Shown piece after piece: positions 8,807 through 19,738 of a stretch of DNA of 34,150 bases (position 1 is the first letter of the stretch; each line of letters starts with the position of its first letter). The position numbers and the translations under genes were made by a program. The notes under the pieces are model-generated. The model did no database searches. It was not told the origin of the DNA and saw nothing but the letters and a program-made list of their open reading frames with translations. Source of the stretch: Lishizhenia tianjinensis (GTDB taxonomy: Bacteria > Bacteroidota > Bacteroidia > Flavobacteriales_D > Crocinitomicaceae); assembly GCA_945902115.1 (NCBI GenBank), contig CAMDLY010000023.1:1-34150 (forward strand), read 5' to 3'.

Positions 8807-8852
8807 ATTTACCGTGAAAATATGTATATTTATATATGTTTTCACGGTAAAT
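8807..8852 (+). promoter_or_regulatory. Perfect 14-bp inverted repeat ahead of the Fic gene
   Basis: Left arm ATTTACCGTGAAAA (8807-8820) and right arm TTTTCACGGTAAAT (8839-8852) are exact reverse complements around an 18-base A/T-rich spacer. It ends 15 bases before the Fic start codon. The spacer contains TATA-rich sequence that could hold a -7 box. The position suits an operator for autoregulation; a cruciform or mRNA hairpin is the alternative. Confidence 0.75.
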
Positions 8853-8867
8853 AATCTAAGCGATAAA

Positions 8868-9755
8868 ATGATAAACCAAACTACAAAAGATAAAATTCAG
8901 TTACTGCACGAGCAATATTTGAATTTGGAAAAGGGAAATGAATCAGTATTGAAGGAAATAACCCTTGCTGAAATTCCGGAGTTGGTTTATAACTCAAACG
9001 CTATCGAAAATTCAACCCTTTCTTTGGAAGACACAGAAAAAATTCTTGCAGGAGGCAATTTAGATCGAAAAGTAAATGTAAGAGAAGTTTATGAAGCAAA
9101 AAATTTGGCCAAACTTACTGAATCTTTGCTAGAAAAAAACAAATCGTTACTCAACATAAATCTCATTTTAAGCTTACATAAAACTTTGCTTTCCAATATT
9201 GACGAGGCGATTGCAGGACGCTTTAGACAAGTTAAAGAATGGGTTCGAGTAGGTAATCACCTAGGGGCTAATCCAACGTTTGTTCCTCCACTCATACAAG
9301 AGTTAGTTGACAATTTCAACCAAGATAAAATCAGTTATTTTTTAGATGCTGTGGCACATTTTCACGCAGAGTTTGAAACCATTCACCCTTTTGTTGACGG
9401 AAATGGAAGAATGGGTAGAGTACTTATCAATCTGCAGTTAATGAATTTAGGTTTCCCTCCAATTATCATTCAAAATAAAAGCAAACATACTGAATACTAT
9501 CCGCTGTTTACTCAGTACCAGTCGACGATGAAATCTGGAGGTTTTACCGAGCTATTTGCGCTTTTATTGCTAGAATCTATGCACAAAAGAATAAGCATAC
9601 TTACGGCAAAAAAAATAATTCCGCTTGCACTATGGGCATTGCAAAAAGGAGTAAAACCAAACGTCGCAGCCAATAAAGCCAAAAGGCAAACGATTCCAGC
9701 CTTTCGCCTGCGCGAAAAATGGATGATTGCAGAAGAATTTACATCAAGCAAATAA
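8868..9755 (+). CDS. fic: Fic-family AMP-transferase (filic) with N-terminal inhibitory helix
   Basis: Fic enzymes transfer AMP or similar groups to protein hydroxyls. The 295-residue product has the catalytic motif HPFVDGNGRMGR at residues 173-184, complete with His173 and both arginines. S43-N-A-I-E47-N48 fits the (S/T)xxxE(G/N) inhibitory helix, placing it among Fic proteins that carry their own N-terminal antitoxin-like segment. A C-terminal tail KRQTIPAFRLREKWMI looks like the end of a small helix-turn-helix, suggesting DNA binding. The ATG at 8868 is used because the in-frame start at 8814 lies inside the inverted repeat. It is a single-gene cassette between repeats A and B. Confidence 0.93.
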   Translation: MINQTTKDKIQLLHEQYLNLEKGNESVLKEITLAEIPELVYNSNAIENSTLSLEDTEKILAGGNLDRKVNVREVYEAKNLAKLTESLLEKNKSLLNINLILSLHKTLLSNIDEAIAGRFRQVKEWVRVGNHLGANPTFVPPLIQELVDNFNQDKISYFLDAVAHFHAEFETIHPFVDGNGRMGRVLINLQLMNLGFPPIIIQNKSKHTEYYPLFTQYQSTMKSGGFTELFALLLLESMHKRISILTAKKIIPLALWALQKGVKPNVAANKAKRQTIPAFRLREKWMIAEEFTSSK

Positions 9756-10067: not shown

Positions 10068-10652
10068 GTGGATGACAAAAAACTTTATATCATAGCTGGT
10101 TGTAATGGGGCAGGAAAAACTACTGCATCTTTTACCATATTGCCTGTAATATTGGACTGTAAGGAATTTGTTAATGCCGATGAAATAGCTAAAGGATTAT
10201 CTCCTTTCCAACCTGAAAAAGTGTCCTTTGAAGCGGGTCGAATAATGCTCAATAGAATAAAAGAATTACTTTCAGAAGAAGAAAATTTTGCCTTTGAAAC
10301 AACATTATCAACAAAAAGCTATAAAAACAAAATTATTGAAGCGCAAAAACAAGGTTATCGTGTTACATTATTATTCTTTTGGCTTCAGAATATTGAGTTG
10401 GCTAAAGAACGTGTAAAAATAAGAGTTTTCGAAGGTGGACATAATATTAATCCTGATGTTATTGAAAGGAGGTATATTAGAGGAATCAAAAATTTATTTG
10501 ATATTTACCTACCTATAGTTGATGGAGCTTTGATTTTTGACAATTCAGAAGGTAAACACGAGTTAATAGTGGACAAACAAATTGACGGATTACTAAATAT
10601 TGTGAATGAAAAAAAGTTTAACCTTTTAAAAAATCAATATGACAACACGTGA
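10068..10652 (+). CDS. Zeta-toxin-like P-loop kinase
   Basis: The 194-residue protein begins with a GTG start and has a Walker A loop G11-C-N-G-A-G-K17-T18 and the zeta-like FVNADEIAKGLSP and FAFETTLSTKSY segments, with a basic lid helix RRYIRGIKNLFDIYLP. Zeta/PezT-type toxins phosphorylate UDP-N-acetylglucosamine; chromosomal relatives of this short form have less certain substrates. No epsilon antitoxin gene is upstream. Instead a 50-residue ORF overlaps its 3' end by 14 bases. It occupies the cassette between repeat B and the tmRNA 3' end. Confidence 0.85.
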   Translation: MDDKKLYIIAGCNGAGKTTASFTILPVILDCKEFVNADEIAKGLSPFQPEKVSFEAGRIMLNRIKELLSEEENFAFETTLSTKSYKNKIIEAQKQGYRVTLLFFWLQNIELAKERVKIRVFEGGHNINPDVIERRYIRGIKNLFDIYLPIVDGALIFDNSEGKHELIVDKQIDGLLNIVNEKKFNLLKNQYDNT

Positions 10653-12363: not shown

Positions 12364-14133
12364 TTATAAGGTGATGTATCTTCTGATTTTTTTACTAGTT
12401 TCGGTATTGAATCTCAACATAAGTTGATGCGTGTAGCGAACATTGGCGAGCTGTTTATCTTGAGATGTCTGTATCAAAATACCAACTCTTTTCGACTGAT
12501 AACCAATTTGAGCAGTTTGTTGAAGTCTACTAAATGATCCTCCTAACTTAACTCCATAGAGGCTAGAGCTGAAACCTACAAAAGAAGTTAATTGGTTCGT
12601 TCTCATTACCCCATATACATAAGGGGCGAATGCTAGGTGTTTATTTCTTGACAAGAATTGGGTGCCAGCGATACCTGAAACTCTTAATTGAGCATATTGG
12701 TAATCGTTCTCTTGATTGGAAAAAACATCGTTGAAGTGTCCTGTGATATTCTCCGCTTGTATGCCGATATAACCGCGAGAAGAATTAACTGTTACCCCGG
12801 CATCTAAATCTCTGTATAAAAGTTGTTTTCCAATGGCTAGTGAGGTGTCGTAATTGACCATTTGCTGGTCTCCGGTTTGGTACTCGATAAATTGGTTGTT
12901 GTAAGAAGTAATTCGTTCTGCATTTACGCGGTAATTGCCAAACCTTAATCTCGCTGCGGGTTCTAATGAAATTGTTCTTGTTAAGGCTATTTTTGGAGAT
13001 AGGGTAAAGGCGCCATCCACTTGAGTCAAAGCACCATTTCCAAAAAAGTGATGGTTCAATTGAAATCCTACACCCATTCGCGCTGATCGGGCATAACCAT
13101 CTACCGCAAGTTGATTGCTTATTTTTTGCTGATTTCCCTCTTCTAGCCATCTTGCCGTCGTAGTGTGTTGATACCTTGTTTGTGAAATAGCTCCTGTATT
13201 GGAAATCATTACATCAGTTTGGCTTGTTTCTGGCAAGGCATAACTGATATCAGGAATGTATGCGAGACCCGTAGATAAATTTGAGAGTACCTTTGAAAGG
13301 GTGGAAAATTTCACGTTACCAATTTTTAATCTTAAGGCTTCGTTCTCAGAAAGAGAATTTTCGTTATTCAATACGCTTTTATTTGCTTCATTCGTTAATT
13401 GAACGGGTTTGGGCTCCATCACTGGAAGGGTAGAAGAGACCTCTCTTTTTTCATTGCTTTGCGAAACCTCATTTAATGTAAGTGATACTTCAGGTATTAA
13501 ATTTAAATCACTTGATTCTGATTTAGTTATGGTGCTTATATTGCTACTATTTTTTTCTCCTTTTTGAGGCAATGAAGCAATTACTGGCGAGAGTACATCA
13601 ACGGGATTTTGACCTACATGTTGAAGCGAATTTTGAGCCACTGGAAGCTTATTGTTAACCTTTAGTGGAGAATCTGAAAGCTCAGCAACAGCAAGTTTAG
13701 TAGCACCATTTTTACGATTTTCTTCTGCGAATAGAGAAGTATTAATTTTCTTAGCTTGTGATGCGGTATTTTTGAGTGCCGTTTTATTGTCTAACTTATT
13801 TGCGGATATTATGTTAGCAGAATTTTGCTCGCTTACACTAAAGCTGTTTTGTTGAATAAACAAGGTAGCCGAGAGAATCAATGCTATACCGTAAAGGACA
13901 TAAGCAACTTTGAAGCGACTGTCTTTTTTGACGAGTAGTTCAGTTCTATCAAACACCGTGGAGAATTGTTCATCTGCAACATATGTGCTTTCTCCCCAAG
14001 CATTAAAGTCTTCGATTAGGTCGGGATGGTCTTCTAAAAATACTTCCAAGGCCTCAACTTGATGAGTAGAAAGATTTCCTTCGTAGTAGTCAAAAAACCA
14101 GCGTTCAATATTTCCCCTTTCAGGATAGATCAT
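12364..14133 (-). CDS. Anti-sigma head fused to a beta-barrel-like domain (dual-membrane-spanning candidate)
   Basis: The 589-residue product has three parts. Residues 1-70 resemble a cytoplasmic anti-sigma domain (FFDYYEGNLSTHQVEALEVF). Residues 75-94 form one hydrophobic helix. Residues 95 to about 280 are Ser/Asn/Lys/Glu-rich, repeat-poor and probably disordered. From about 285 to 585 the sequence alternates in beta fashion with Tyr/Gly-rich strands such as GVGFQLNHHFFGN and RVGILIQTS, resembling PorP-like barrels. The ATG overlaps the sigma gene stop by ATGA, so translation is coupled. The layout fits the dual-membrane-spanning anti-sigma class described in Bacteroides. No signal peptide precedes the head. 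Confidence 0.7.
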   Translation of the reverse strand: MIYPERGNIERWFFDYYEGNLSTHQVEALEVFLEDHPDLIEDFNAWGESTYVADEQFSTVFDRTELLVKKDSRFKVAYVLYGIALILSATLFIQQNSFSVSEQNSANIISANKLDNKTALKNTASQAKKINTSLFAEENRKNGATKLAVAELSDSPLKVNNKLPVAQNSLQHVGQNPVDVLSPVIASLPQKGEKNSSNISTITKSESSDLNLIPEVSLTLNEVSQSNEKREVSSTLPVMEPKPVQLTNEANKSVLNNENSLSENEALRLKIGNVKFSTLSKVLSNLSTGLAYIPDISYALPETSQTDVMISNTGAISQTRYQHTTTARWLEEGNQQKISNQLAVDGYARSARMGVGFQLNHHFFGNGALTQVDGAFTLSPKIALTRTISLEPAARLRFGNYRVNAERITSYNNQFIEYQTGDQQMVNYDTSLAIGKQLLYRDLDAGVTVNSSRGYIGIQAENITGHFNDVFSNQENDYQYAQLRVSGIAGTQFLSRNKHLAFAPYVYGVMRTNQLTSFVGFSSSLYGVKLGGSFSRLQQTAQIGYQSKRVGILIQTSQDKQLANVRYTHQLMLRFNTETSKKIRRYITL

Positions 14134-14615
14134 ACTAATTCGTTCAAATGTGTTAACTGCTTTTTTATTTTCATTCGTGCCCTGAACAAATACACCTTCA
14201 CTTGAGAGGCAGAAATTTCAAGTATTTCCCCGATTTCGTCGTAGGAGTAACCTTCTAAATCCCTAAGCAACAAGATGCTTTTCTGAAGAGGAGGAAGAAT
14301 GGACACGACATAGTTGATCACTTGCGTAGACTCATATTGAGTTTTGTCAAAAGATCCTCTCTCGTGCAGAGCTAAGTTTAGTTCACAGGTGCGATTTTTC
14401 TTCTGGATGAAATTAATCATCGCATTGTTCACACACGTAAATAACCAAGCTTTAGTTTTTCCCGTCTCTACCTTTTCTCTGTTCATCCACAATTTTTCGA
14501 AAACATCTTGTACAATATCTTTGGCCTCTTCTTCATTGCGAAGAAAATTTACAGCAAATCTCATCAGAGGACTGCTGTATTGATAAATGGCCTTATTATA
14601 TTCGATTGATTTCAA
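14130..14615 (-). CDS. ECF-type RNA polymerase sigma-70 factor
   Basis: The 161-residue protein has region 2 (LMRFAVNFLRNEEEAKDIVQ then DVFEKLW) and region 4 (LPPLQKSILLLRDLEGYSYD then EIGEILEISASQVKVYLFRA), the domains of an extracytoplasmic-function sigma factor, with no sigma 1.1 or 3. It should direct transcription of a stress or envelope regulon when released by its anti-sigma factor. It is first in the three-gene operon, with an ATGA overlap to the anti-sigma gene. A -7 box and an 8-base inverted repeat lie in its leader. Confidence 0.95.
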   Translation of the reverse strand: MKSIEYNKAIYQYSSPLMRFAVNFLRNEEEAKDIVQDVFEKLWMNREKVETGKTKAWLFTCVNNAMINFIQKKNRTCELNLALHERGSFDKTQYESTQVINYVVSILPPLQKSILLLRDLEGYSYDEIGEILEISASQVKVYLFRARMKIKKQLTHLNELV

Positions 14616-14653
14616 AAAAAATGATTTGCAATTAAAACAATTTGAATTAGTTA

Positions 14654-14677
14654 AAAGTTACATCTGAACGTAACTTT
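14654..14677 (-). promoter_or_regulatory. Dyad in the leader of the sigma factor operon
   Basis: Arms AAAGTTAC and GTAACTTT are perfect reverse complements around an 8-base spacer. It begins about where transcription should start from the -7 box at 14682-14689, so it could be an operator or a 5'-terminal RNA stem-loop of the transcript. Confidence 0.5.
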
Positions 14678-14743: not shown

Positions 14744-15394
14744 TTATTTACAATAACAGTTTTCCTGGAGTGCTTTATTTTTCCATTGAATCCAATACTC
14801 TTGTAAATTCTCTTTGGTTTTAAAAAGTTTACTCACCTGGAGCGATTTACAAAAAATAGTAGTCCTTTCTGGATTTTTTAAGTCCTTTAATCGTCTTTTT
14901 AAGTCAGGTGCGTGATCCCATCCGCCAGAATGGTCAAACGATGTATACGCATCACATTTTTTTTTGACCCTAATAAGCGGGATTTTTATGGTGTAATGCA
15001 CGGTGTCTTTATTGTCCATACCCAAAGTTGTCATAACAATATGATTCAGGTCAACCTTGCGAAACTTTCCTTCTTTGTGGAGCTTCTTGAGTTCTAATCC
15101 TGCTATTTTAGCTGCGAGATTAGACAATCGATGAGCAGTATCGTTCATTTCCCCGTTATACATAATAAACTCAGGTCCTTTGTAAGAAAAAAATAAGAGG
15201 GAATCACTGATGTCAATTTTTATGTCTGAGGTAAATACAGAATTCTCTAACGTTGCTGAGGGAATGGTTTTGTCATCAGCTTCTTTCGGAACAGAAGAGT
15301 CTTCCTTGTTTGGCGTGCAAGAGGAGTTAAGAAATAAGAAAAAGCAGCTGCTAAAAGCCGAAATTATCGAAGCCGTTTTCAGATAAAGATTCAT
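14744..15394 (-). CDS. Hypothetical lipoprotein
   Basis: The 216-residue product starts with a hydrophobic leader and Cys26 in FLFLNSSCTPN, a plausible lipobox, so it is probably lipid-anchored in the outer or inner membrane. The mature part begins with a Ser/Asp/Lys-rich linker and then a mixed domain with several lysine-rich helices and terminal cysteines (ENCYCK). No family is recognised. Its first 44 bases overlap the end of the Nudix-type gene on the same strand, so the pair is probably one transcript. There is no obvious link to sugar use. Confidence 0.6.
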   Translation of the reverse strand: MNLYLKTASIISAFSSCFFLFLNSSCTPNKEDSSVPKEADDKTIPSATLENSVFTSDIKIDISDSLLFFSYKGPEFIMYNGEMNDTAHRLSNLAAKIAGLELKKLHKEGKFRKVDLNHIVMTTLGMDNKDTVHYTIKIPLIRVKKKCDAYTSFDHSGGWDHAPDLKRRLKDLKNPERTTIFCKSLQVSKLFKTKENLQEYWIQWKNKALQENCYCK

Positions 15395-16094
15395 ATTTTT
15401 CTACGTCGAATTTATATAAAAGAGAAGGTTTGTGGGGAACGCCTCGCTGTTTCTCTTTCAGCGCTGTGACTATCCCAAGCTTTTGGACTTTGCGTCTAAA
15501 ATTTCTCTTATCTAATGGTTTGTCTAGAATGCTCTCGTATAATTTATGTAGTTGGCTTAAAGTGAATTTCTCCGGTAATAAATTGAAACCAATTGGTTGA
15601 ACTTTTATTTTTTGTCTTAGTTTTTCCTTGGCTGCTAACAAGATTTCATAATGGTCGAAAGCGAGTTCAAAAAGTTCACTTACTGGTGCCCATCCCGCTG
15701 TTTTGGCGAAGGAGGAGGCGTGAGGAGCATAGTCCGACATTTTGACTAATGAGTAATAAGCAACTGTAATTACCCGCGCCTCGGGTTCAGCGCGTATCGA
15801 TTGCAACCATTCTCTGTCTGCATCTTTACAAATTCTATTTGGATCTCCAAATGCACCTACTTGTTCGAGATAAATATTCTTGATACCTGCTAATTCGTCT
15901 AAAACTCTACTCGCGGCTTGATCTAAATTTTCATCATTGTAAATCAAATTTCCGGGAAGGGCTAGTCGCGGTCCATTTTTCGTTTCTTGACCCCTATCAA
16001 TGAGTAAAACAGTAAGTTTCTCAAAATCAAAACCAAAAATAACGCAATCAACGGAGACATTCGGATTTAATTCATGCATTGCTTTTTTTTGCAT
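15351..16094 (-). CDS. Nudix-domain transcriptional regulator (NrtR/AraR-like)
   Basis: The 247-residue protein has an N-terminal Nudix fold (VDCVIFGFDFEKLTVLLIDR, then LALPGNLI) with a degenerate Nudix box: the REUxEE core reads RVLDEL, so hydrolase activity is unlikely. The C-terminal 90 residues (FTLSQLHKLYESILDKPLD then KRNFRRKVQKLGIV) form the winged helix typical of NrtR-type regulators, which in Bacteroidota often sense sugar metabolites and control sugar operons. It is divergent from the maltose operon, separated by 82 bases holding a dyad, so it probably controls that operon. An alternative start lies at 16079. Confidence 0.88.
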   Translation of the reverse strand: MQKKAMHELNPNVSVDCVIFGFDFEKLTVLLIDRGQETKNGPRLALPGNLIYNDENLDQAASRVLDELAGIKNIYLEQVGAFGDPNRICKDADREWLQSIRAEPEARVITVAYYSLVKMSDYAPHASSFAKTAGWAPVSELFELAFDHYEILLAAKEKLRQKIKVQPIGFNLLPEKFTLSQLHKLYESILDKPLDKRNFRRKVQKLGIVTALKEKQRGVPHKPSLLYKFDVEKYESLSENGFDNFGF

Positions 16095-16176: not shown

Positions 16177-17043
16177 ATGTTTTTTGTTATAGAAAGTGGA
16201 TCAACTAAAAGTGATTGGGTGTTAATAGATAACAAAAATAACCAAACTTTTTATTCTACAATGGGTTTTAACCCGTATTTCCATTCAGCAGACCTCATTG
16301 AAAAAGAACTGAAAAGTAACCCGGAAATTTATCGATTAGCTTCAGAGATTAAAGGTGTTTACTTTTATGGCGCTGGTTGTTCAAGTCCTAAAATGAACAA
16401 AATTGTTGAAGACGGATTTGGTAGGGTTTTTACTCATGCAGATATTTTGGTTGAACATGACTTATTAGCATGTGCTTACGCCACATACAGAGGAGTTCCG
16501 GTGATTTCTTGTATTATTGGAACAGGTTCTAATTCTTGTTATTTCGATGGTTTAAAACTTTCGGAGGAAGTTCCTGCCCTCGGTTATGTTCTTGGAGATG
16601 AGGGGAGTGGTTCATATTTCGGGAAGCAATTGTTAGCTGGATATCTTTATCATAAGTTGTCACCAGAAATTGAACAAGACTTTTTCTCTACCTACGGTCT
16701 CGATAAAGAGGCAATTGTAGATAAGGTTTATTGTGAGCCCAATGCAAATGTATTTATTGCTTCTTTTATGCCCTTTATTTACAAGTACAAGTCAGATGAA
16801 TTTATGCATCAGATGCTTGTTGAGGGGTTTAAGCGATTCATAGATGTCCACGTGACATGTTATCCCAATTATCGGGAGAAAGAATTAAACTTTGTAGGTT
16901 CGATTTCTTCACTTTTTGAGGAGGAACTAATAGAGGCTGCGGCTTCATTTGGCCTTACTATCGGAGCAATCATCAGAAGACCTGTTGATTCACTTGTAAG
17001 TTACCATGTGAAATATATACTTAGCAATCAATTAACGCAATAA
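16177..17043 (+). CDS. BadF/BcrA-type ASKHA kinase (annotated in relatives as N-acetylglucosamine kinase)
   Basis: The 288-residue cytoplasmic protein has the ASKHA phosphate-1 loop SGSTKSDWVLID near the start, an adenosine-side VISCIIGTGSNSCYFDG, and LGDEGSGSYFG, a signature of the BadF/GlcNAc kinase-like family. It phosphorylates a sugar. In this operon, where maltose phosphorylase releases free glucose, a glucokinase role is the economical inference, though related proteins act on GlcNAc. The stop overlaps the next ATG by one base (TAATG), indicating coupling. Confidence 0.85.
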   Translation: MFFVIESGSTKSDWVLIDNKNNQTFYSTMGFNPYFHSADLIEKELKSNPEIYRLASEIKGVYFYGAGCSSPKMNKIVEDGFGRVFTHADILVEHDLLACAYATYRGVPVISCIIGTGSNSCYFDGLKLSEEVPALGYVLGDEGSGSYFGKQLLAGYLYHKLSPEIEQDFFSTYGLDKEAIVDKVYCEPNANVFIASFMPFIYKYKSDEFMHQMLVEGFKRFIDVHVTCYPNYREKELNFVGSISSLFEEELIEAAASFGLTIGAIIRRPVDSLVSYHVKYILSNQLTQ

Positions 17044-18359
17044 TGAAATCGTATATTTTAATAGTCATACTCGCAACGACTTACTTTTCGTTTGGACAAT
17101 TTAAAACACCGGAATGGTGTAAAAAAGCCACTATTTACGAGGTCAATATTCGTCAGTTCACCCCCGAAGGTACTTTTGCAGCATTTTCAAAACACCTGCC
17201 TCGTTTGAAGCAAATGGGTGTGGATATAATTTGGTTGATGCCAATACATCCCATTGGAGAGAAGAATAGAAAAGGCGGTCTAGGAAGCTATTATGCGGTC
17301 AGGAACTATGAGGAAGTAAACGCTGAATTTGGAACTATGGCAGATTTTCAGCAATTGGTTAAAGAAACTCATGCAAACGGTATGAAGCTTATCATCGATT
17401 GGGTGGCAAATCACACTTCACCCGATAATGTATGGGTTGGTCAAGGGCATATGGATTGGTACACCTTGGATTCCACAGGGAATCTTCAGCCGACTATTGG
17501 TACGGATTGGTGGGATGTAGCTGATTTGAATTATGACAACAAGGAGATGAGAAAAGCCATGATTTCTTCCATGCAGTTTTGGCTTAAAAATGCTGATATT
17601 GATGGTTTTCGTTGCGATGTAGCGGGATGGGTTCCGATGGATTTTTGGATTGAAGCGCGTAAAGAACTTGATGCCGTGAAGCCCATATTCTTTTTGGCGG
17701 AATCTGAAGGGGTAGACCAGCACCAGGCTTTTGATATGACGTACGGCTGGGAATTACATCATGTTATGAACGAGATAGCCAAAGGAAAAAAGAGCAACGC
17801 AGATGTTTTGGCGTACTTTGAAAAAAACAAGTACAAACGTTCCGATTACCGCATGCATTTTACTTCCAATCACGATGAAAATTCATGGAACGGAACAGAA
17901 ATGGAGCGCTTGGGAGATGCACGCTTTGCGCTCGCTGTTTTTGCGGCAACTATTGAGGGGATGCCACTCGTTTACAATGGCCAGGAGACATCCTTGGATA
18001 AGCGATTGCGTTTTTTCGAAAAGGACACCATCGATTGGTTGAAAATGGATTTGGTTTCATTTTATACCAAATTGCTTCAACTGAATCGTAAAAATTCAGC
18101 CTTGTGGAATGGTGAATATGGAGCTCCACCTGTATTTCACACAGAGGCTACTTCTCCTATACTTATATATTCTCGGGAAAAAGACGGAAATAAAGTCGTG
18201 GTTGCCATTAATATGTCAGCAAAAGATGCGGCCTTGAAATTAACAGATCCCAAACTGTTTGGAAAATACAAAGAATTGTTCAGTGGAGAAAAACTCCGTA
18301 TAAAAAAGGATATGACACTTGACTTAGAGGCCTGGGGATACAGGGTTTGGGTTAAGTAA
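17043..18359 (+). CDS. Exported GH13 alpha-amylase-family glycosidase
   Basis: The 438-residue enzyme begins with a signal peptide (MKSYILIVILATTYFSFGQ), so it is periplasmic or surface-located. The GH13 catalytic triad is present: nucleophile Asp192 in GFRCDVAG, acid/base Glu220 in FLAESEG and Asp278 in TSNHDENSW. The region DWVANHTSPD is conserved region I. There is no T9SS tail, unlike the second amylase of this operon, so I place it in the periplasm acting on oligosaccharides. It could also be a neopullulanase- or cyclomaltodextrinase-type enzyme; family assignment is firm, specificity is not. Confidence 0.93.
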   Translation: MKSYILIVILATTYFSFGQFKTPEWCKKATIYEVNIRQFTPEGTFAAFSKHLPRLKQMGVDIIWLMPIHPIGEKNRKGGLGSYYAVRNYEEVNAEFGTMADFQQLVKETHANGMKLIIDWVANHTSPDNVWVGQGHMDWYTLDSTGNLQPTIGTDWWDVADLNYDNKEMRKAMISSMQFWLKNADIDGFRCDVAGWVPMDFWIEARKELDAVKPIFFLAESEGVDQHQAFDMTYGWELHHVMNEIAKGKKSNADVLAYFEKNKYKRSDYRMHFTSNHDENSWNGTEMERLGDARFALAVFAATIEGMPLVYNGQETSLDKRLRFFEKDTIDWLKMDLVSFYTKLLQLNRKNSALWNGEYGAPPVFHTEATSPILIYSREKDGNKVVVAINMSAKDAALKLTDPKLFGKYKELFSGEKLRIKKDMTLDLEAWGYRVWVK

Positions 18360-18373
18360 TAAAACGTAAGGCA

Positions 18374-19738
18374 ATGCTGCAACATAAACCAAAATTATCT
18401 TTCTGGCAAATTTGGAACATGAGTTTTGGCTTCATGGGAATCCAATTCGGGTTTGCGCTGCAAGGAGGATACATGTCTAGAATATTTCAAACATTAGGTG
18501 CTGAACCTGATGAAATTCCCGGCTTGTGGATTGCTGCACCTTTAACGGGTCTACTTGTTCAACCAATTATTGGTTTTCTATCTGATCGGACTTGGTCCCC
18601 TCGTTTTGGGCGTAGAAAGCCTTATTTCTTGATAGGGGCTATTTTAAGTTCTGTAGCCTTGTTATTTGTTCCTTATTCCCCAGAATTATGGGTGGCGGCT
18701 GGGTTTTTATGGATTCTTGACGCTTCAATAAATGTAAGTATGGAACCTTTTAGGGCACTCGTTGCTGACAAATTGCCAGATGAACAACGATCTTATGGTT
18801 TTATCCTTCAAACATTAATCATTGGAATAGGTACATGGGTGGCCTCAAATTTACCTTGGATGGTATCTAAATTAGGAATCGCCGAATCTAACGATACGTC
18901 CGTTATACCCACCAACGTCAAAGTCGCCTTTGGGATTGGGGCATTGGTATTTTTAGCGAGTATACTATATACCGTATTAACTACAGAAGAATATCCCCCA
19001 AGCGACGAAGATAAATTTAGAGAAGAGAAAAATAAGGGCCGTTTTTTACCCGATTTACTAGCCTCAGTGAAATCAATGTCAGGAACTATGCTGAAACTTG
19101 GTATTGTTCAGTTTTTTAGTTGGTTTGCATTTTTTACCATGTGGAGTATGTCTACTCCGGCATTAACAGCACATATTTATAACTCACCAGCACCAATTGA
19201 GGAGAACTTTAATATGAATATCGCTTCTGAAAAGGCAGATTTTGAAAAAATGAATTCAGCATTTCAAGCTGCAGCTGATTTAGTTGGATCGAATATGGGA
19301 GTCTACGGTTTGACATCCATGGCTTTTGCCCTAATATTGACATTTTATTCATCTAAAAACATAATTAATAGAAAATGGATTCACCTAGTATCTCTAGTGA
19401 TTGGGGGTTGTGGGTTTTTGCTGATGAATTTTATACCTGACCCAAGTTATTTGTGGATGTGTTTTGCACTCATTGGATTTTCTTGGGGAAGTATTTTATC
19501 TATGCCATACGCTATGTTGTCAAGTTCTGTGGATGAGAGCAAAATGGGATTAATGATGGGGCTATTCAACATGTTCATTGTGATACCTCAAATCATTGCC
19601 TCTTTGGGTGGAGTGAACACACTATCGAGACTATTTGGTGACTCACCAATTTCCCCTATGCTATTGGCAGGAACCTCTTTGGTTGTTGCAGGATTATGTA
19701 ATCTATTGATCCGCGATAAAAATGTTTCTCATGGTTAA
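18374..19738 (+). CDS. MFS sugar transporter, SLC45/GPH-like (maltose candidate)
   Basis: A 454-residue inner membrane protein with about twelve hydrophobic segments. The loop LSDRTWSPRFGRRKPYFLIG between helices 2 and 3 carries the D-R and R-x-GRR-x-P-Y pattern of SLC45/GPH-type sugar cotransporters. Its place between an exported amylase and the maltose phosphorylase pair points to maltose uptake. It ends eight bases into the pgmB gene that follows. Confidence 0.88.
   Translation: MLQHKPKLSFWQIWNMSFGFMGIQFGFALQGGYMSRIFQTLGAEPDEIPGLWIAAPLTGLLVQPIIGFLSDRTWSPRFGRRKPYFLIGAILSSVALLFVPYSPELWVAAGFLWILDASINVSMEPFRALVADKLPDEQRSYGFILQTLIIGIGTWVASNLPWMVSKLGIAESNDTSVIPTNVKVAFGIGALVFLASILYTVLTTEEYPPSDEDKFREEKNKGRFLPDLLASVKSMSGTMLKLGIVQFFSWFAFFTMWSMSTPALTAHIYNSPAPIEENFNMNIASEKADFEKMNSAFQAAADLVGSNMGVYGLTSMAFALILTFYSSKNIINRKWIHLVSLVIGGCGFLLMNFIPDPSYLWMCFALIGFSWGSILSMPYAMLSSSVDESKMGLMMGLFNMFIVIPQIIASLGGVNTLSRLFGDSPISPMLLAGTSLVVAGLCNLLIRDKNVSHG

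Follow-up and report, generated by a model that had tools for sequence, protein, structure and literature searches.

How could a sigma factor in the cytoplasm be informed directly by a barrel in the outer membrane, and why should a gene for a PorP/SprF-type protein share its operon? Both questions are raised by three consecutive genes in the window, i.e., the whole stretch of 34,150 nucleotides that was analysed, which is contig C23 of a 2.5-Mb genome (Table 1).

Organization of the sigma factor operon

The initial annotation described an ECF sigma factor gene overlapping a 589-codon gene by the sequence ATGA, with a PorP/SprF gene beginning 11 bases past the latter; the open reading frames and family matches bear out this arrangement. 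The sigma factor scored 133.8 bits against the NCBIfam model NF058625 (sigma_PG0214, cut-off 130) and also matched the Pfam models of sigma regions 2 and 4, and the PorP of the operon matched PF11751 (8.9e-57) and TIGR03519 (3.8e-70).

Table 1. Features of the operon and of the encoded 589-residue protein, with positions in the window
Feature	Position	Strand	Remarks
ECF-type promoter TGTAACTTT-N13-TTGTTTTA	14633..14662	minus	17 nt before the sigma start
ECF sigma factor ORF	14130-14615	minus	161 codons, TTG start; NF058625; homologue directly upstream of the fusion in 80/80 loci
Single-chain dual-membrane anti-sigma factor (Dma-like, predicted), P0001	12364-14133	minus	589 codons
Cytoplasmic head (predicted), residues 1-50	13984..14133	minus	three helices; pLDDT 87-96 by block
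Inner-membrane helix (predicted), residues 73-96	13846..13917	minus	AlphaFold2 and hydropathy in 70 proteins
Disordered periplasmic tether (predicted), residues 97-283	13285..13845	minus	low pLDDT; low identity
PorP/SprF-like 14-strand barrel (predicted), residues 284-589	12367..13284	minus	hhalign to PorP; AlphaFold2
PorP/SprF ORF, P0003	11393-12352	minus	319 codons; two C-tail cysteines

Domain structure of the 589-residue protein

An AlphaFold2 model of the 589-residue protein was built with 63 relatives. The helices of its N-terminal head span residues 6–48, and W12, F14, D15, E18-G19-N20-L21 and W46 of the head are invariant columns of the alignment; no anti-sigma family match was found in Pfam for the protein. 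The membrane helix, which had been proposed at residues 75–94, is present in the model at almost the same place. The hydrophobic peak starts at residues 68–84 in 70 proteins, and with a window of 19 residues its hydropathy exceeds 1.6 in 61 of them. In 68 of the 70, positive charge is higher in the 15 residues that lead up to the helix than in those that follow it, a bias indicating an N-in orientation. The stretch between helix and barrel, for which about 190 low-complexity residues had been noted, appears as about 180 disordered residues, with pLDDT values under 50 across most of residues 98–275; tether length, which could be estimated for 68 of the 70 proteins, is 164 ± 30 residues (range 35–261). 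Mean pairwise identity is 0.54 in the head, 0.12 in the tether and 0.36 in the putative sensor barrel (64 rows).

For the C-terminal domain, the barrel suspected in the initial annotation was predicted with confidence, and neither a soluble nor a non-barrel fold was obtained: 14 main strands lie between residues 320 and 576, most blocks having pLDDT values of 87–97, and two short extra strands occur at 415–425. The pTM of the whole-chain model is 0.57, as expected for parts joined by a flexible tether. That the two halves are made as one chain agrees with the relatives, where the frame is complete and continuous in 71 of 80 loci (the best 80 of 94 found through the head motif), the other nine reaching contig ends. 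Judged from its modelled layout, the protein is most likely a dual-membrane-spanning anti-sigma factor of the Dma type, with predicted binding of the sigma factor and predicted insertion into the outer membrane. The proposal that it is a Dma relative, linking a barrel to a cytoplasmic sigma factor, is supported computationally, its anti-sigma activity and outer-membrane location being predictions.

Relationship of the putative sensor barrel to PorP/SprF

When P0001 was compared as a single sequence with PF11751 and TIGR03519, no match was obtained. Eleven of 29 members of the fusion family match PF11751 (best 7.4e-23) and TIGR03519 (best 6.6e-30), while 18 do not match the PorP models; both the missing match of P0001 and those of the 18 members count against a role of the operon in carrier supply, as proposed below. 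With the operon PorP as phmmer query, 23 of 39 fused or contig-cut proteins were found, and in 18 of the 23 the match covered 220 PorP residues or more; the search missed 16 of the 39, the window's own protein included, which likewise counts against carrier supply, and a reversed PorP used as control gave no matches among the fused proteins. Comparison of profiles, a check proposed for the initial annotation, was strongly positive: hhalign aligned residues 291–589 of the sensor with residues 16–314 of PorP with a probability of 99.7% and an E value of 1.8e-25.

At the level of structure, the Foldseek ranking for the sensor barrel was headed by OmpG, with FadL in second and 8gl6_F in third place. 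VIA-align, a second look at the same Foldseek matches, placed 8gl6_F, a chain of a T9SS complex, at the top (Z 23.0, rmsd 2.9, 254 aligned residues), followed by the T9SS translocon chain 6h3i_F (Z 22.4), FadL 3pgr (Z 22.0) and FadL-type barrels at Z values of about 20–22. The chain in 8gl6_F and 6h3i_F is presumably the carrier PorV. With the PorP model (mean pLDDT 68.4), OmpG, FadL-type barrels and 8gl6_F were within 1 in Z, and a search of the PDB by sequence found no PorP/SprF structure. Fold rank was thus discarded as a pointer to the carrier family; it is the sequence profile that singles out PorP. Computation supports the assignment of the sensor barrel as a diverged PorP with a predicted 14-strand, FadL-type fold. 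This ancestry of the barrel and the relation of the adjacent PorP to the core T9SS PorP, of which it appears to be a spare, go beyond the initial annotation and are both supported by computation.

Conservation of the operon

A sigma factor homologue lies within 60 bases upstream of the fusion gene in all of the best 80 of the 94 loci. These loci share organisms with the genomes G001–G059, so that the two sets are not independent; most named relatives are labelled as Flavobacteriales or Crocinitomicaceae. Where the fusion gene is complete and 150 bases or more of sequence lie behind it, a PorP gene follows in 64 of 68 cases. For two of the remaining four (L092, L135), the contig ends about 170 bases on. 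L146 and L153, two of the 71 complete loci, truly lack an adjacent PorP, with more than 2.3 kb of sequence following, and count against a function in carrier supply. The order sigma–fusion–PorP is far beyond chance, and the co-occurrence search envisaged for the three genes was positive.

P0001 has matches in 44 of 60 relatives, among them 31 of 36 genomes of the same genus; some of the order-level matches comprise the head only or stand-alone frames. Further families within the taxonomic order share this gene arrangement (L068, L070, L071, L072). A phylum-wide search (395 genomes, with three candidates scored in each) mostly returned matches to the C-terminal half in frames of about 300–380 residues, which are read as stand-alone PorPs; distant fusions may be missed by this search.

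Five loci (L069, L073–L076) code for a related head followed by a C-terminal part which was missed by the single-sequence barrel query and which gave no informative Pfam match. L146, which judged by its sites is the G058 fusion and identical to L069, matches the barrel profile at 3e-19. L073–L076 have the related head and the sigma factor gene in the same order; their proteins total 423–441 residues and end in a different, shorter C-terminal part, and are possibly Dma proteins with other sensor barrels. The 594- and 614-residue frames L201 and L202 (contigs C54 and C53 of G096) have ends that weakly match the sensor-barrel profile and PorP; no sigma factor match was found beside them at an E value of 0.001, and they possibly represent another kind of PorP fusion.

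The operon PorP and the core T9SS PorP

A second PorP, encoded on contig C17 and 84% identical to the operon PorP, sits between porV-porU and a gldJ-like gene whose product matches GldJ models just below the cut-offs. Among 22 non-operon copies (20 selected, plus those of G000 and G019), gldJ adjoins all 22, porU 21 and porV 19; where porU or porV is absent, the copy is on a stretch ending near the gene. At least two PorP matches at an E value of 1e-60 or better occur in 24 of 31 same-genus genomes with a fusion match, and in one (G009, which is incomplete) of the five same-genus genomes without a fusion.

In a PorP tree computed without an outgroup, operon copies (37 rows) and core copies (22 rows) do not form two clades; the tree contains 11 label changes, eight of which are forced by well supported branches. 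Operon and core PorP genes of G005 and G055 are 92% identical at the DNA level, yet their first 20 codons are only 45–50% identical, which points to gene conversion or repeated replacement of the copies in some lineages. If the sequences are read in this way, operon and core copies are probably interchangeable. In the other 16 of the 18 genomes compared, DNA identity of the two genes ranges from 0.63 to 0.89 (0.74 in the genome under study), and the fact that clear homogenisation is seen in few of the 18 counts against a carrier-supply function. Mean pairwise identity is 0.66 among operon PorPs (27 rows) as compared to 0.36 among the sensor barrels.

The operon PorP carries tail cysteines at residues 304 and 316. 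Two cysteines in the last 25 residues are shared by all 36 other operon copies and all 22 core copies, whereas among 70 sensor barrels only one contains a cysteine within the final 30 residues, the sensor tail encoded in the window having none. None of the seven other PorPs of the genome has two tail cysteines, and two have one. In Flavobacterium johnsoniae, SprF is reported to be joined to the GldK track through a disulfide of its tail cysteines, and this linkage depends on exported SprB (PMC12635249). By analogy, we infer the same GldK-linking role for the cysteines of operon and core PorP; their spacing is C-x11-C as compared to C-x-C in SprF, and an SprF-type cysteine tail is not universal in the PorP/SprF family.

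Ten PorPs of the genome exceed the Pfam cut-off, and six of them are encoded directly behind a type B CTD match, which is not the case for the operon and core copies. Contig C23 yielded no gene for cargo bearing a type B CTD, and genome G049 has a second core-type PorP without a sigma factor or fusion gene beside it; both observations count against carrier supply as the function of the operon.

Promoter and candidate regulon

Upstream of the sigma factor gene, TGTAACTT followed by a TTGTTTT-like word was found in 77 of 78 regions, with a spacing of 22 nt in 76 of the 77. The operon promoter is the only zero-mismatch copy in its own genome, and when up to two mismatches were allowed, this genome had five sites as compared to three in the reversed control; a wider regulon therefore rests on the relatives. 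The exact motif TGTAACTT-N14-TTGTNNTA occurs 53 times in the genome under study and 60 relatives (seven in the reversed control), and 23 exact sites were detected in ten genomes reached through the loci, one of which is G058 again (four in the control). Removal of operon sites and duplicates left 38 sites, 31 of which precede genes for proteins with signal-peptide-like N termini, against a background of 308 of 646 genes. The binomial p of 1.8e-5 is rough, because the signal peptide criterion is loose and the starts of the target genes are better placed than those of the background genes.

Three of the 38 sites have no open reading frame behind them, one precedes ung (L239) and another a further sigma factor gene (L264). 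The 35 proteins encoded downstream of sites include three PorPs, and one of the 35 carries a CHU_C type IX secretion signal domain. Two genomes are the most informative. In G058, where the fusion lacks an adjacent PorP, an exact site is located 30 nt before a PorP gene on another contig, and this unlinked PorP has the two-cysteine tail. Genome G055 contains, at positions 2599–3965 of L282, two convergent genes, each behind an exact site; one codes for a PorP, the other for a lipoprotein of 131 residues that has a CHU_C domain.

By inspection, about ten sites precede members of a family of lipoproteins of about 120 residues. The genome under study has a tandem cluster of three such genes behind a weak promoter copy with two mismatches (L336 4414–5601, contig C5), and homologues are present in 55 of 60 relatives. 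Among 30 lipoprotein loci, one of which was not readable, a site with at most two mismatches was found at 25 of 26 in the same genus, and at none of three in order-level genomes without a detected fusion. Three of the 25 site-bearing loci lie in genomes in which no fusion was found, namely G019 (100% complete, site with two mismatches), G009 (74%) and G031 (66%), and this counts against the operon acting in carrier supply.

A possible carrier-supply circuit and alternative explanations

On balance, we favour the interpretation that the operon is an autoregulated carrier-supply circuit, in which a Dma-type anti-sigma factor senses how much carrier is available, or how heavily it is loaded, and brings about expression of a spare one. 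PorP/SprF shuttles are reported to receive type B CTD proteins from the translocon, and overproduced type B substrates are said to be secreted poorly because these shuttles are scarce; cognate pairs reached iPTM values above 0.8 in that study (PMC12618676). Binding of a type B CTD protein to PorP is also reported (PMC9143113). Computation supports the anatomy, the gene order, the PorP ancestry of the barrel, the spare-copy status of the operon PorP and the shared promoter, and we infer outer-membrane insertion, sigma binding, the identity of the signal and the mode of release, either by pull or by proteolysis. In such a circuit, the head would hold the sigma factor in the cytoplasm, and the inner-membrane helix and the disordered tether would cross to an outer-membrane barrel descended from PorP/SprF carriers, the proteins that pick up type B cargo at the T9SS translocon. 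With too little true carrier for the load, a type B C-terminal domain would engage the barrel, or engagement would result from losing a PorP partner; a carrier-like barrel without the track-linking tail could compete with true carriers for cargo. The tether would pass the engagement on, and the freed sigma factor would transcribe its own operon, providing a spare copy of the core PorP and a small set of exported proteins, the spare carrier closing the loop. A more specific version, possible but somewhat doubtful, holds that a diverged carrier wired through both membranes measures the free type B cargo missed by the true carriers, and restores carrier supply through a spare gene which gene conversion keeps interchangeable with the core copy. 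If true, Dma barrels in general would be altered versions of the very outer-membrane machines that they monitor.

The barrel might instead belong to an ordinary Dma protein that senses an unrelated outer-membrane signal, such as a glycan, a lipid or the vesiculation state, its PorP ancestry being a matter of history and PorP just one member of the regulon. Dma2 of Bacteroides, a proposed glycan sensor, acts mainly on its own operon and on polysaccharide loci (PMC13088901), and in the relatives the motif also occurs before lipoproteins and non-PorP barrels; the near-invariant adjacency of PorP, which persists as promoter linkage in G058, and the intermingling of the operon PorP with the core T9SS copy in the tree make this explanation rather unlikely. 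Many of the genes behind the 31 of 38 non-operon sites (background 308 of 646) code for barrels or lipoproteins by inspection, as would suit a sensor of assembly: upon failed BAM insertion, the uninserted barrel or the tether would be cleaved, and the sigma factor released to replace outer-membrane proteins. But a sensor for insertion in general would not have to be a PorP, and there would be no need for a spare PorP to be retained in the operon in different families; we consider this explanation improbable.

A similarly low probability is assigned to the notion that the operon PorP forms part of the sensor as a subunit, e.g., in a barrel–barrel complex, and not a spare carrier. Adjacency in 64 of 68 cases and the co-expression expected from one promoter would fit a partner of this kind, but the PorP of G058 is unlinked and has the promoter alone in common with the fusion, and the operon PorP is far more conserved than the sensor barrel (0.66 versus 0.36) and groups with core copies. 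That the C-terminal region is no barrel at all, or that the halves are separate proteins, could be suspected from the lack of a significant family match of P0001 on its own; it is contradicted by the continuous frames in relatives, hhalign, AlphaFold2 and VIA-align, and is highly improbable. The carrier-supply circuit suggests how a cell could match its carriers to the secretion load, in view of the low carrier abundance reported in PMC12618676.

Comparison with known systems

Dma proteins are known from Bacteroides (PMC13088901). As judged from layout, the protein described here resembles them in its predicted anti-sigma head, single membrane helix, long disordered tether and C-terminal barrel; an adjacent ECF sigma factor gene and the own operon as one of the main targets are further common traits. 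The sigma factors next to Dma genes are of the ECF21 family, and the one described here was assigned through NF058625. In contrast to Dma2, the barrel is related to PorP/SprF and the operon contains a spare core PorP; the Dma2 operon and neighbouring genes code for DUF4943, DUF4858 and an enoyl-ACP-reductase-like protein. Among the matches listed from the open-licence PMC literature, no title or abstract opening described a PorP-type barrel on an anti-sigma factor.

Carriers of the PorP/SprF family are 14-strand barrels related by sequence profile to the C-terminal domain of the sensor, and the third gene of the operon codes for a true member. Unlike these carriers, the sensor barrel lacks a signal peptide of its own and is joined N-terminally to an inner-membrane anti-sigma factor, and it is also devoid of the cysteine tail that links SprF to the GldK track (PMC12635249). 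PorXY-SigP with PorA of Porphyromonas gingivalis is similar in that T9SS genes are governed by an ECF sigma factor under the control of a surface signal linked to T9SS; that system uses a two-component route and a free surface protein, whereas a single chain through both membranes is predicted here (PMC7712824).

Signal sensing by Dma barrels (PMC13088901) becomes directly testable here, because the ligand class is known for the family to which the barrel is related, namely the type B CTDs of T9SS cargo. A cultured relative with the fusion is Crocinitomix catalasitica ATCC 23190 (L139); transfer to F. johnsoniae would be another option.

In cell-surface signalling, a TonB-dependent transducer barrel informs a FecR-type inner-membrane anti-sigma factor, the two being separate proteins, whereas barrel and anti-sigma factor are one chain in the protein described here.

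Genes flanking the operon

In many relatives, the gene in front of the sigma factor gene has about 250 codons. Downstream of the operon in the window, and on the opposite strand, are genes for a 194-residue P-loop protein (10068–10652, plus strand), which from its motifs we take to resemble zeta-toxin/AAA kinases, and for a 313-residue, presumably Fic-type protein (8814–9755, plus strand). On the other side, kinase-like, alpha-amylase-like and MFS transporter genes at 16177–19738 (plus strand) presumably form a sugar locus, from which a gene for what we assume to be a NUDIX/NrtR-type regulator (15351–16094, minus strand) diverges.
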